64,000 bases of DNA from Roseateles hydrophilus (lineage in GTDB: Bacteria > Pseudomonadota > Gammaproteobacteria > Burkholderiales > Burkholderiaceae_C), in contig NZ_JAPPUY010000001.1 in NCBI RefSeq assembly GCF_026712245.1, positions 124,001 to 188,000 on the forward strand. Reading direction: 5' to 3'. Under the pieces are notes generated by a model. The model worked only from the letters and a program-made list of their open reading frames with translations, was not told where the DNA came from and did not search any database. This document shows, in pieces, positions 57,292-60,957 of this stretch. Each line of letters begins with the position of its first letter. The stretch's first letter is position 1. Position numbers and translations under genes: made by a program.

Positions 57292-57978
57292 TCAAGCGCC
57301 GGCCTGGCGGCGCCGCACCGGGGCGACCTGGGTGTTCACGGTCACCGCTGCGCCGCCGGCCGCCACGTCCAGCGTGATGGGTGCCGTGTCCAGCACCTGG
57401 TCGGGGTGCCAGATGCGCACGCGCGCCGGCCCGGCCGGCAGCGCCGTGAAGCGGGCCTGGCCGTCGGCCTCGCTGACCCGCGCCCAGGGTGTGTCCGCCA
57501 CGTAGAGGTGGCCGCGCATGGAACCATGCAGGTGGCAGCCCAGCAGGTAGGCGCCGGTCTGCGTGACGCTGCGGGTCTCCCGCGCCAGCGTGTCGCCCAC
57601 CTTGCCGGCTAGGCGCAGCTGCTGGTTCTGGCCCGGGTCCAGGTAGAAGCCACCTGGCCCGACCGGGCCGAGGATGACGTGGTGATCCCAGGCGTCCAGG
57701 TTGGTGAAGCTGACGCGGGCGCCCGCGTGCACCACGGTTACATAGGGCTTGAAGCGCATCTTCTGCTGCTGGATGGTGGCCTCTAGCATCGGCGTGACGG
57801 CGCCGGCCGGAAGAGTGGACTGCACCATCACCACCGCATCGGCCAGCGGCTGGCCGTGCTTGTCGAGCACGCGCACGGCAAGGTCGGCGGCGTGGGCAGG
57901 CAGGGCCAGCGCGGCGAGGGCGCCCATCAGGGCCAGGTGGGCAAGGTGCGCGGCGGCGCGCGAAAAGCGGACAGGCAT
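57292..57978 (-). CDS. Exported cupredoxin-like (plastocyanin/methylamine-utilisation-type) protein
   Basis: A 228-aa periplasmic protein. The signal peptide (MALIGALAALALPAHAA-like region, ending about residue 30) is followed by a cupredoxin-like fold with copper-ligand candidates His in DHHVILG and Cys-His-Met in GCHLHGSM. An Ig-like carboxypeptidase-regulatory beta-sandwich seems to form the C-terminal third. ATG 57978 was chosen because it directly precedes the signal peptide; an upstream Met at 58008 is possible, but it would place the start at the promoter's -10 element. An ECF-type promoter lies 32 bp upstream. Confidence 0.82.
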   Translation of the reverse strand: MPVRFSRAAAHLAHLALMGALAALALPAHAADLAVRVLDKHGQPLADAVVMVQSTLPAGAVTPMLEATIQQQKMRFKPYVTVVHAGARVSFTNLDAWDHHVILGPVGPGGFYLDPGQNQQLRLAGKVGDTLARETRSVTQTGAYLLGCHLHGSMRGHLYVADTPWARVSEADGQARFTALPAGPARVRIWHPDQVLDTAPITLDVAAGGAAVTVNTQVAPVRRRQAGA

Positions 57979-58009: not shown

Positions 58010-58037
58010 TACGCCAGCAGGCCGCGACTGGATGCAC
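58010..58037 (-). promoter_or_regulatory. ECF-type promoter of the cupredoxin gene
   Basis: On the minus strand, GTGCATCC (58037-58030) is followed by exactly 16 bases and CGTA (58013-58010). The -10-like CGTA lies 32 bp before the cupredoxin ATG. The same bipartite element with identical spacing precedes the sigma gene and the DUF3034 gene. Confidence 0.75.
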
Positions 58038-58077
58038 GGCGCCGACCTGCGCCTGCCGGCGCGTCGGCCAGGGTGTG

Positions 58078-58749
58078 TCAAATGGCGCCGACGGAGACGA
58101 TGGGCCCGGTGGGCGCTCCGGTCGGCGAGCCGCCGGCCGGCTCCAGGCTGACCGCCAGCGCCTTGGCGCCGCGCAGTATTTCGCCACGCAGCACCGTCGT
58201 GGCATCACGCCCCGACACCAGGCCCAGCGAGCGAGGCGCCGCCTGATCGGGCACCACCCACAGCTCCAGCGCCCGGCCCTCGGCCACCTGGGCCAGGCCC
58301 AGCGGCTTGAGCACCAGCGCGCGGCCGTCGGCGCTGACGCTGGCGACGAAGCCGGCCGGCAGCAGCGAGTTGCCGTCCGGCGTTCGCTCCAGCACCACCA
58401 CCAGCGGCGGCTGTGCCACCGGTGGCTGCAGCTGCAGCACGACCAGTGCCAGCGCGGCCGTCACGGCCAGCCCCGAGAGGCCGCGCCACAGCCCCAACCG
58501 TTGCCACCAGCGTGGCGGCGCACCGAACAGCCGCGCTTGCAGCTGCTGCCACACCTGCGGGCGGGGTTGCAGCTCGACGAGCGGCGTGGCGAGCGTGTGC
58601 ACCCGAGCCTCCCAGGCCCACACGGCCGCAGCCAGCGTGGGGTGGGCGGGCAGCAGCTGCTGCAGGCGCCGCCGCGCACCGCCGCGCAGCGTGCCCAGGG
58701 CGTACTCGGCGGCCAGACGATCGGCCAATTCGCGATTGCTGTAGTCCAT
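58078..58749 (-). CDS. Anti-sigma factor (RskA-like)
   Basis: A 223-aa membrane protein. The N-terminal cytoplasmic helical domain (about 1-85; ELADRLAAEYALGTLRGGARRRL) resembles zinc-free anti-sigma domains, one transmembrane helix follows (about 95-112; LSGLAVTAALALVVLQL), and the periplasmic C-terminus matches the RskA domain (LELWVVPDQAAPRSLGLV). It is encoded 1 bp after the sigma gene and should hold that sigma factor inactive at the membrane. Confidence 0.9.
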   Translation of the reverse strand: MDYSNRELADRLAAEYALGTLRGGARRRLQQLLPAHPTLAAAVWAWEARVHTLATPLVELQPRPQVWQQLQARLFGAPPRWWQRLGLWRGLSGLAVTAALALVVLQLQPPVAQPPLVVVLERTPDGNSLLPAGFVASVSADGRALVLKPLGLAQVAEGRALELWVVPDQAAPRSLGLVSGRDATTVLRGEILRGAKALAVSLEPAGGSPTGAPTGPIVSVGAI

Positions 58750-58750
58750 C

Positions 58751-59395
58751 TCAACGCGCTCCGGCCGAGGGTAGGGCCGCGCGGGCGGCACGGTCCAGGC
58801 AGTCGCGCAGGCTTTGCAGCCCGCGCCGTATCCAGCTCTTCACCGTGCCCAGCGGCTGGGCCATGCGGCCCGCCACCTCGGCGTGCGAGAGGCCGTCGTA
58901 GTAGGCCATTGCCAGGCTGGCTCGCTGGCGCTCCACCAGGCCTTCCAGGCAGTGCTCCAGCGTGTGCTGTTCCGACGCCTGCTCCAGCAGGGCCAGCGGC
59001 CCGGCGGCCGTGTCGGGCAGCTGGGCCAGCAGGTCGTCGTCGCCATCACCGTCGCCGTCGGACCGGGCGCTGTAGCGGCTGATGGTGTCCGGCTCGCGGC
59101 TGCGCCGGCGCAGGCCGTCGATGGCACGGTTGCGGGCGATGCTCATCAGCCAGGTCATGGGCCGCCCGAGGGCCGGGCTGTAGCTGCCGGCGGACCGCCA
59201 GACCGTCACATAGACCTCCTGCAGGATCTCCTCGGCATGGCCGCGGTCACCCACCAGCCGCACGATGACAGCCAGCAGCGTGCCACTGCTGGCCTTGTAC
59301 AGCGCTTCAAACGCGGCACGGTCGCCCAGCGCCGTGCGGGCCATCCAGGTGTCCAGGGCGTCGGGCGCAGCGGCAGGGGAAGGGGTGTGGGTCAT
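58751..59395 (-). CDS. ECF RNA polymerase sigma factor (SigK-like group)
   Basis: A 214-aa extracytoplasmic-function sigma factor. Region 2 holds AEEILQEVYVTVWRSAGSY and WLMSIARNRAIDGLRRR, a linker is Asp-rich (about residues 105-120), and region 4 is YYDGLSHAEVAGRMAQPLGTVKSWIRRGLQSLRD. Pairing with an RskA-like anti-sigma suggests the SigK-type ECF group. A candidate autoregulated promoter lies at 59491-59518, giving a leader of roughly 90 nt. Confidence 0.93.
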   Translation of the reverse strand: MTHTPSPAAAPDALDTWMARTALGDRAAFEALYKASSGTLLAVIVRLVGDRGHAEEILQEVYVTVWRSAGSYSPALGRPMTWLMSIARNRAIDGLRRRSREPDTISRYSARSDGDGDGDDDLLAQLPDTAAGPLALLEQASEQHTLEHCLEGLVERQRASLAMAYYDGLSHAEVAGRMAQPLGTVKSWIRRGLQSLRDCLDRAARAALPSAGAR

Positions 59396-59490
59396 GGCTT
59401 GGCAGGTCGAGGCCGGGCAGGGGCAGGGACGTGGGCGATTGTTGACGCGCAGGCGCCGGCCAGGGGAGAGCCGGTCGGCACTGTGGGATC

Positions 59491-59518
59491 TACGTCACGC
59501 CGCGGCAATTGGATGCAC
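59491..59518 (-). promoter_or_regulatory. ECF-type promoter of the sigma/anti-sigma operon
   Basis: On the minus strand, GTGCATCC (59518-59511), 16 bases, CGTA (59494-59491), followed by about 95 bases to the sigma ATG. Its -35 element forms one arm of a perfect GGATGCAC/GTGCATCC inverted repeat whose other arm is the -35 of the divergent DUF3034 promoter. Confidence 0.75.
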
Positions 59519-59523
59519 AGGCC

Positions 59524-59551
59524 GTGCATCCGTTGGCGCACCGCGTGCGTA
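59524..59551 (+). promoter_or_regulatory. ECF-type promoter of DUF3034-hemoglobin operon
   Basis: GTGCATCC (59524-59531), 16 bases, CGTA (59548-59551), then 37 bases to the DUF3034 ATG. The -35 elements of this and the divergent sigma promoter are separated by only 5 bp (AGGCC). Confidence 0.75.
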
Positions 59552-59588: not shown

Positions 59589-60488
59589 ATGACTCTGCGC
59601 ATCTCCCGCGCCGCTGTCGCCGCGGCCCTGGCCGTGGCGGGCGCCGCCCAGGCCGGCGACGGCAAGCTGCTGCTGACCGGCGGCGTCAGCAGCATCGACG
59701 GCGCAGCCGGCGGCGGCCTGACGCCCTGGGCCGTGACCGGCAGCTACGCCACCACTGGCGAGTTCGGTGCCACGGCCTTCGCGACGGCCGTGAAGACGGG
59801 CGACTACGGCTTCAAGGTGATCGGCGCAGCCGTCAGCTGGGGCGACCGCGTCGAGCTGTCGCTGGCCCGCCAGGACCTGGACACCCGCGACAACCTCGCC
59901 CCGCTGGGCTTGGCCGGCCTGCACCTGAAGCAGGACATCCTTGGCCTGAAGCTGCGTGTGGCGGGCGACGCGGTGCTGGACAGCGACCGCTGGATGCCCC
60001 AGATCGCCGTGGGCCTGCAGCACAAGCGCACCGATGCCGGCGCGCTGGCGCCCACGCTGTTCGGCCCGCTGGGCGCGCGCCGCTCCGGCACGGATGTGTA
60101 TGTCAGCGCCACCAAGCTGTTCCTGGCGCCCGGCATCGTCGTCAACGGCACGCTGCGCGCCACGCGGGCCAACCAGAACGGCCTGCTCGGCTTTGGCGGC
60201 GCCCAGGGGCGCGGCTACCAGCTCAAGCCCGAGATCTCGGTGGCCAAGCTGCTGTCTCCCCAGGTGGCGGTGGGGGCGGAGTTCCGCGCCAAGCCCGACA
60301 ACCTGAACCGCTCGGTGCTGGGCGACGGCGCGCTGCGCGAGAACGCCTGGTTCGACGTCTTCGTGGCCTGGGCGCCCAGCAAGCAGGTGTCGCTCACGGC
60401 CGCCTATGTGGACCTGGGGCGCATCGCCCCGGCCGTCCAGCCGCGCCGCCAGACCGGCGCCTACCTGTCCGCCCAGCTGGCCTTCTGA
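59589..60488 (+). CDS. DUF3034 family outer-membrane-barrel-like protein
   Basis: A 299-aa exported protein with signal peptide MTLRISRAAVAAALAVAGAAQA and alternating beta-strand sequence ending in a C-terminal aromatic (AQLAF), as expected for an outer-membrane beta-barrel. Conserved DUF3034 segments include KLLLTGGVSSIDGAAGGGLTPW (key residues GGVSSIDGA) and RVELSLARQD. AAGGAG precedes the ATG. It lies 28 bp before the hemoglobin gene and divergent from the sigma gene. Function unknown; a pore or sensor role is inferred. Confidence 0.87.
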   Translation: MTLRISRAAVAAALAVAGAAQAGDGKLLLTGGVSSIDGAAGGGLTPWAVTGSYATTGEFGATAFATAVKTGDYGFKVIGAAVSWGDRVELSLARQDLDTRDNLAPLGLAGLHLKQDILGLKLRVAGDAVLDSDRWMPQIAVGLQHKRTDAGALAPTLFGPLGARRSGTDVYVSATKLFLAPGIVVNGTLRATRANQNGLLGFGGAQGRGYQLKPEISVAKLLSPQVAVGAEFRAKPDNLNRSVLGDGALRENAWFDVFVAWAPSKQVSLTAAYVDLGRIAPAVQPRRQTGAYLSAQLAF

Positions 60489-60516: not shown

Positions 60517-60957
60517 ATGACCCACCCCCTCCGAACTCTGGCCGCGATGGCCGCCGCCGTGCTGCTATCTACCGCGCAGGCCCAGACGCCCGCGGCCGAT
60601 GACAGCCTCTACCGCGCCTGGGGCGAGAAGGCCGGCATCCAGGCCGTCATGCAGGACTTCGTGGTCCGGCTGCAGGCCGATGCCCGCATGGCCCCGTTCT
60701 TCAAGGACACCAACCGCGACCACCTGGCCACTCAACTCACCGAGCAGCTGTGCCAGCAGGCCGGCGGCCCCTGCGTCTACAAGGGCGTGCCCATGAAGGA
60801 GGCGCACGAGGGCATGGCGATCGGTCGGCGCGACTTCAACGCGCTGGTCGAGGTGCTGCAGCAGAGCATGGCGGCCAAGGGCATCCCGTTTGCGGCACAG
60901 AACGCAATGCTGGCGCGCCTGGCGCCCATGCACCGCGACATCATCAACAAGCCGTGA
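60517..60957 (+). CDS. Exported group 1 truncated hemoglobin
   Basis: A 146-aa protein whose first 23 residues (MTHPLRTLAAMAAAVLLSTAQAQ) are a signal peptide, so this hemoglobin is probably periplasmic, unlike classical cytoplasmic TrHb1. The globin part has DFVVRLQADARMAPFF (helix B to CD1 Phe) and GVPMKEAHEGMAI, where His is the probable proximal heme ligand. At the usual B10 Tyr position the residue seems to be Val. It could bind O2 or NO, or transfer heme. GGAG precedes the ATG. Its end overlaps the convergent GDPD gene by 14 bp. Confidence 0.88.
   Translation: MTHPLRTLAAMAAAVLLSTAQAQTPAADDSLYRAWGEKAGIQAVMQDFVVRLQADARMAPFFKDTNRDHLATQLTEQLCQQAGGPCVYKGVPMKEAHEGMAIGRRDFNALVEVLQQSMAAKGIPFAAQNAMLARLAPMHRDIINKP

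Follow-up and report, generated by a model that had tools for sequence, protein, structure and literature searches.

A predicted autoregulated SigK-type ECF regulon for a DUF3034 protein, an exported truncated hemoglobin and a cupredoxin in Roseateles hydrophilus

Three copies of a bipartite element in a 64,000-nucleotide (nt) window of the Roseateles hydrophilus genome, the whole stretch of DNA that we analyzed, very probably mark an autoregulated ECF sigma regulon of the SigK-RskA (ECF19-like) type. From the placement and conservation of these elements, the sigma factor would direct transcription of its own gene and that of its anti-sigma factor, of an operon for a DUF3034 protein and a globin, and of a gene for a cupredoxin.

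Results

A sequence-only reading of this region had proposed three identical ECF promoters, and we recovered all three where it had placed them, on the same strands and in promoter position. The window contains precisely three copies of the element GTGCATCC-N16-CGTA, and none arose in 100 dinucleotide shuffles. The first copy (59491..59518, minus strand; -35 TGCATCC at 59511-59517, N16, -10 CGTA at 59491-59494) precedes the sigma/anti-sigma operon; the second (59524..59551, plus strand; -35 TGCATCC at 59525-59531, N16, -10 CGTA at 59548-59551) precedes the DUF3034-globin operon; and the third (58010..58037, minus strand; -35 TGCATCC at 58030-58036, N16, -10 CGTA at 58010-58013) precedes the cupredoxin gene. 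All are exact matches, but the word "identical" holds for the 8 + 4 core bases and not for the spacers, which are unlike one another. The last base of CGTA lies 37 nt from the start codon of the DUF3034 gene, as had been read, 31 nt (not 32) from that of the cupredoxin gene, and 95 nt from that of the sigma gene. When the search was relaxed to at most two mismatches, 7 sites were found against a shuffle mean of 4.94, no excess over chance, so the signal resides in the exact core only.

The sigma gene (58751..59395, minus strand) encodes a protein of 214 amino acids (aa) in which Pfam recognizes Sigma70_r2 at residues 32-100 and Sigma70_r4_2 at residues 146-196, with no model for region 1 or 3, which is the domain content of an ECF sigma factor. 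Its closest solved homolog is SigK (4nqw_A, E 2.2e-29), with 2q1z next (E 1.1e-19). The best NCBIfam model is likewise that of SigK (NF007228), but the score of 154 bits falls short of the cut-off (226 bits), which indicates kinship with SigK and leaves the protein outside NCBI's own SigK subfamily. Both SigK cysteines have aligned counterparts, Cys149 and Cys199, which 39 of 43 alignment rows retain. According to the accessible portion of PMC7509140, the two cysteines (133 and 183 of SigK) occur in 94% of ECF18 and 56% of ECF19 sigma factors, and SigK of Mycobacterium tuberculosis belongs to ECF18.

The next gene after sigma on the same strand (58078..58749, minus strand) encodes an RskA-type anti-sigma factor (Pfam RskA_C, E 6.8e-20). 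RskA_C was its only Pfam match, and the cupin domain of a ChrR-type anti-sigma factor was not found among the Pfam results. By eye, its N terminus (LAAEYALGTL / LADRLAAEYALGTL) resembles the AS19-1 helix-1 consensus HTLAGAYALDAL given in the accessible portion of PMC7406223, where RskA of M. tuberculosis is counted in AS19-1, the regulator class of ECF19. Since the available text of one source assigns SigK to ECF18 (PMC7509140) and that of the other assigns RskA to AS19-1 and thus to ECF19 (PMC7406223), we use the label "SigK-type, ECF19-like." Judged by domains, solved homolog and cysteines, the pair is SigK-RskA-like and ECF19-like, which bears out the earlier guess of a SigK-type system.

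The three predicted effectors all have signal-peptide-like N termini. The DUF3034 protein (59589..60488, plus strand; Pfam DUF3034, E 2.8e-96) is a predicted outer-membrane beta-barrel: its AlphaFold model has 12 strands at a mean pLDDT of 74.6, which drops under 50 at residues 1-6, 15-51, and 196-202, and Foldseek ranks outer-membrane barrels highest, FapF and OmpG among them, at TM-scores of about 0.5. From this model, the protein is very likely a barrel. The gene that follows (60517..60957, plus strand) encodes a group 1 truncated hemoglobin, its signal-peptide-like start judged by eye, that matches Pfam Bac_globin; its best profile matches are HbN and other group 1 chains, with HbN (1idr/2gl3) nearest among solved structures. 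His97, which we take to be the proximal ligand, is invariant in 20 of 20 aligned sequences, as are Cys79 and Cys86; the conservation of these two cysteines in an exported globin suggests a disulfide outside the cytoplasm. The third effector (57292..57978, minus strand) is a cupredoxin-domain protein, identified by its copper-ligand pattern, profile matches, and model fold; a Pfam search of this protein matched no cupredoxin model. Its type 1 copper ligand pattern (His99, Cys148, His151, and Met154) is invariant in 28 sequences, its profile matches are to copper nitrite reductase and amicyanin, and its model (mean pLDDT 92.8) resembles AcoP, amicyanin, auracyanin, and plastocyanin, with 104 to 139 columns spanned and TM-scores by target of 0.48 to 0.69 in the best 20 Foldseek rows.

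Conservation in related genomes, a check that the sequence-only reading had itself named, came out in its favor both near and far. Roseateles puraquae (L217) shares the gene order of the window (cupredoxin, anti-sigma, sigma, DUF3034, globin), and all three elements are present with their places unchanged. The arrangement by which we recognized autoregulation, one element at fixed spacing before both the sigma gene and its putative targets, was thus found in R. puraquae as well as in the window. A short metagenome-bin contig (L216) keeps both divergent elements and stops before its cupredoxin gene would start. When the region between sigma and DUF3034 was aligned across three sequences, neither TGCATCC nor CGTA varied at either promoter, and the spacers and flanks had diverged; the cupredoxin promoter alignment (two sequences) likewise has invariant boxes with a diverged spacer and flanks.

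For more distant comparisons, we took the best 80 of the 118 DUF3034 loci found, 79 of which yielded a 250-nt upstream region. G[CA]ATCC-N16/17-CGTA lies upstream of DUF3034 in 51 of these 79 regions from the best 80 of 118 loci (46 with N16 and 5 with N17), counts that are not independent because the loci are mutually related. The 12 other spacers examined in the same 79 regions (N10 to N15 and N18 to N23) gave no match, and 200 rounds of shuffling averaged 0.04 matches and never exceeded 2. Among the N16 sites of this set, the second base of the -35 box varies by lineage (15 GCATCC versus 31 GAATCC), and this choice of C or A may reflect differences in region 4.2 of the sigma factor. The remaining 28 of the 79 regions have no exact element; 6 of them are one mismatch away at N16. 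A second and less biased sample, an even draw across the family, contained DUF3034 in 52 of 150 genomes. With the R. hydrophilus genome left out, the element precedes DUF3034 in 26 of 51 relatives (12 GCATCC and 14 GAATCC), and two further loci have it farther upstream (L056, about 1.1 kb; L069, ahead of the cupredoxin gene). When 66 N16 sites were aligned, a T preceded the -35 box in 61 and a purine followed it in all 66, neither of which had been imposed by the search. The pattern TGMATCC-N15-GCGTA gave 179 matches in 100 family genomes, versus 8 when reversed.

Conservation, fixed spacing, and placement in relatives are thus as the ECF promoter reading predicted. We consider it very improbable that the element is instead an ordinary transcription-factor site or a chance repeat with no promoter function. 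A dimeric regulator could indeed bind two conserved blocks held a constant distance apart, but the pair is nonpalindromic and keeps one orientation, its spacer is 16 bp (rarely 17 bp), it lies mostly 28 to 108 nt ahead of the start codon, and at many loci an ECF sigma gene is found in the same cluster. A chance repeat was rejected on the shuffle counts given above, 0 in 100 for the window and a mean of 0.04 against 51 of 79 for the DUF3034 regions (best 80 of 118 loci).

The organization of the distant loci bears on which genes share the putative regulator. DUF3034 and an adjoining globin gene form a nearly constant pair, and cupredoxin and sigma-anti-sigma genes often follow or lie nearby; many relatives have DUF3034, globin, and cupredoxin in one row behind one promoter, often followed by sigma and anti-sigma. 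In the lineage of the window, these same genes are distributed over three units, and every unit carries a copy of the element. Within the best 80 of 118 loci, the element was found in 16 of 40 sigma upstream regions (N16 only), 4 of 53 cupredoxin regions, and 0 of 76 globin regions, and the globin and cupredoxin figures fit a globin gene, and usually a cupredoxin gene, that is read from the DUF3034 promoter. We regard the retention of the element by the effectors despite rearrangement as the strongest argument that they share a regulator.

The identity of that regulator is less uniform across the family. We sampled 29 homologs of the sigma factor by similarity from the genomes of 25 relatives and searched the 350 nt ahead of each for the N16 element, which was present at the genes of 11 homologs and missing from those of the other 18. 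Eight of the 11 homologs most similar to the window sigma factor are among those without it (L089-L094, L096, and L111); in these eight loci, an RskA-like gene follows sigma despite the missing element. G007 has the most similar sampled sigma factor (61% identity) with the element at its own gene, and its DUF3034 gene has none. A genome of the same genus as the window, G030, has the element before DUF3034 at N17, with a best sigma match that is only 38% identical. The correlation between presence of the element and presence of the sigma factor across genomes proved too loose to use.

A second ECF system also came to light in the relatives. In G007 and G030 (among loci L175, L179, and L038), GCATCC-N16-CGTA precedes ChrR-cupin genes beside a different ECF sigma gene. 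SnoaL-like and SRPBCC-like genes also lie behind the element in G007, and in G142 by eye behind a less perfect element. These placements suggest that a single promoter type may serve two ECF subgroups, or that the subgroups overlap, and the G007 and G030 cases mean that the sigma factor reading the element is not constant within the family. They also lend some weight to a rival reading in which the promoters are real ECF promoters, read by more than one ECF subgroup, and the effectors in R. hydrophilus are driven wholly or partly by another of its ECF sigma factors. Looser copies of the element near a ChrR-associated sigma gene in G142, the presence of the element before DUF3034 in G030 and G142 with no close relative of the window sigma factor, and the 18 sampled homologs without an element of their own all point the same way, as does the count of 23 region-4.2 matches in the R. 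hydrophilus genome (17 above cut-off), which means that other sigma factors exist there. We nevertheless judge this rival unlikely. A single sigma factor of the genome matches at E <= 1e-25, it is encoded between the target units, and its own promoter carries the element; this arrangement is kept in R. puraquae, and there is no full-consensus site elsewhere in the R. hydrophilus genome. The window sigma factor is, on these grounds, the preferred candidate for the regulator of all three units.

We surveyed that genome (4,772,216 bases in 13 contigs, 98.66% complete) for further members of the regulon. A scan for GTGCATCC-N16-CGTA, as the sequence-only reading had proposed, returned the three promoters together with one additional exact copy inside a 428-aa open reading frame, which by eye from its translation encodes an acyl-CoA dehydrogenase. 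The same four sites, the fourth again reading GTGCATCC, are the only matches to TGCATCC-N16-CGTA. The bare core GMATCC-N16-CGTA has 10 matches, 7 of them outside the three promoters, and none in the reversed control; the count of 10 is near that expected by chance. The fuller consensus learned from relatives, TGMATCCR-N15-CGTA, fits only the three window sites among these 10, and the other 7 were rejected as regulon members because they lack the T before or the purine after the -35 box. Their location within long open frames is no argument either way, since in this G+C-rich DNA the three real sites also lie in such frames (431 to 581 codons). At N17, the GMATCC core has two matches in the genome, neither with both the preceding T and the following purine, and the reversed control has six.

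The claim that the regulon is self-contained accordingly stands for full-consensus sites in this genome and fails as a general statement, given that relatives have up to 13 sites and that the ChrR-cupin ECF system shares the element. Across 16 sampled relatives, TGCATCC-N16-CGTA occurs at 1 to 13 sites each, 73 in total versus 5 for the reversed pattern. Flanks were obtainable for 70 of the 73, and downstream genes were counted if they started within 350 nt. A gene of a listed family lies downstream of 43 of the 70 sites, and the other 27 have no assigned gene. Behind the 43 are DUF3034 (10), sigma (7), and DUF4331, DUF2282-like, SnoaL-like, and TonB-receptor genes (3 each), the DUF2282-like label having been given by eye to proteins with no Pfam match. 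In 13 of the 43, the site is the source of the query protein itself; within this set, therefore, the genes for SodC, glutathione peroxidase, a catalase-family protein, RPE65, and DUF4198 were each seen in a single genome. Pfam analysis of the genes behind the element identified DUF3455 in four genomes and Ferritin_2 in two, along with DUF4331, Sod_Cu, GSHPx, and Catalase. DUF4331 genes stand behind the element in L043 (by Pfam), in L163, L172, and L181 (by similarity), and in L048, L053, and L060 (by eye). Taken by their predicted functions, the putative targets in relatives suggest an envelope redox-stress regulon.

The spread of sites in these 16 relatives, several of them before redox genes, raises the possibility that in R. 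hydrophilus too the regulon exceeds three units through promoters with weaker elements. Such an extension is compatible with the autoregulated three-unit regulon that we favor, and we consider it possible but doubtful: the genome has no other full-consensus site, and DUF4331, a recurrent target elsewhere and the candidate for a fourth target, was not found in it.

Discussion

The data suggest a simple circuit. At rest, the RskA-like anti-sigma factor, which by analogy with its family would span the membrane, would hold the sigma factor. Release would follow a signal from beyond the inner membrane, most probably oxidative or redox stress, and sigma-bound RNA polymerase would then read the three promoters, each with a -35 box of TGCATCC(A/G), a 16-bp spacer, and a -10 box of CGTA. 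The predicted output is the sigma factor with its inhibitor, the outer-membrane barrel with the exported hemoglobin, and the cupredoxin. The redox-stress part of this scheme is tentative, with somewhat less than an even chance of being right in our estimate, and derives from the nature of these proteins and of the genes behind the element in relatives.

SigK promoters have a -35 box that contains CATCC. The closest known counterpart, SigK-RskA of M. tuberculosis, shares several properties with the system described here: its SigK is the nearest solved sigma factor, both cysteines are present, an RskA_C anti-sigma gene lies directly downstream, and the targets are exported. The systems differ in the targets themselves, which are mpt70 and mpt83 in M. 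tuberculosis and here a DUF3034 barrel, an exported truncated hemoglobin, and a cupredoxin, and in that the NCBIfam SigK model scores the window protein below its cut-off. The RpoE-ChrR singlet-oxygen regulon of Rhodobacter sphaeroides and Pseudomonas syringae (PSPTO_1043) is similar as a small, autoregulated ECF oxidative-stress regulon, and two relatives have the window-type element at an ECF system with a ChrR-cupin gene; none of the three target units of the window, however, appears in its core list in the accessible portion of PMC5507510. In Sinorhizobium meliloti, overproduction of RpoE1 or RpoE4 raises the expression of periplasmic redox genes, including pseudoazurin, but these sigma factors belong to another ECF group (ECF26) and their promoters read GGAAT ... 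CGTC rather than GCATCC ... CGTA, according to the available text of PMC6180224. We found no description of the present regulon in the open-access papers searched. The switch is of a known type, and the gene set under it seems undescribed.

One speculative interpretation, which we think unlikely to be correct in every part, is that DUF3034, the cysteine-paired hemoglobin, and the cupredoxin form an envelope heme-copper chain for oxygen, peroxide, or nitric oxide, and that the SigK-type sigma factor with GMATCC-N16-CGTA is its dedicated, family-wide switch, which in several lineages would also control DUF4331, DUF3455, SodC, and peroxidase-like proteins. If such an envelope unit with a dedicated switch exists, three DUF families would acquire their first assigned function. 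The analysis connects several uncharacterized families, namely DUF3034 and, in relatives, also DUF4331 and DUF3455, with a single putative switch and provides a testable promoter signature for this sigma type. An exported two-cysteine truncated hemoglobin that travels with a cupredoxin is also an unusual candidate for periplasmic redox or nitric-oxide chemistry, and the regulon hints at conditions in which to study the globin.

Some minor features of the region between the sigma and DUF3034 genes were also observed. The two divergent 8-base -35 motifs are separated by 5 bp in the window (59519-59523), compared with 18 and 19 bp in L216 and L217, respectively, where an A-tract lies between them. 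The two divergent promoters of the window may be mutually exclusive. The predicted RNA fold of the sigma leader was no better than that of shuffled sequences (z 0.25). Within this 5' leader, a 13-bp block, CGATTGTTGACGC (59436-59448), shows no variation among the window, L216, and L217, a degree of conservation equal to that of the promoter boxes.
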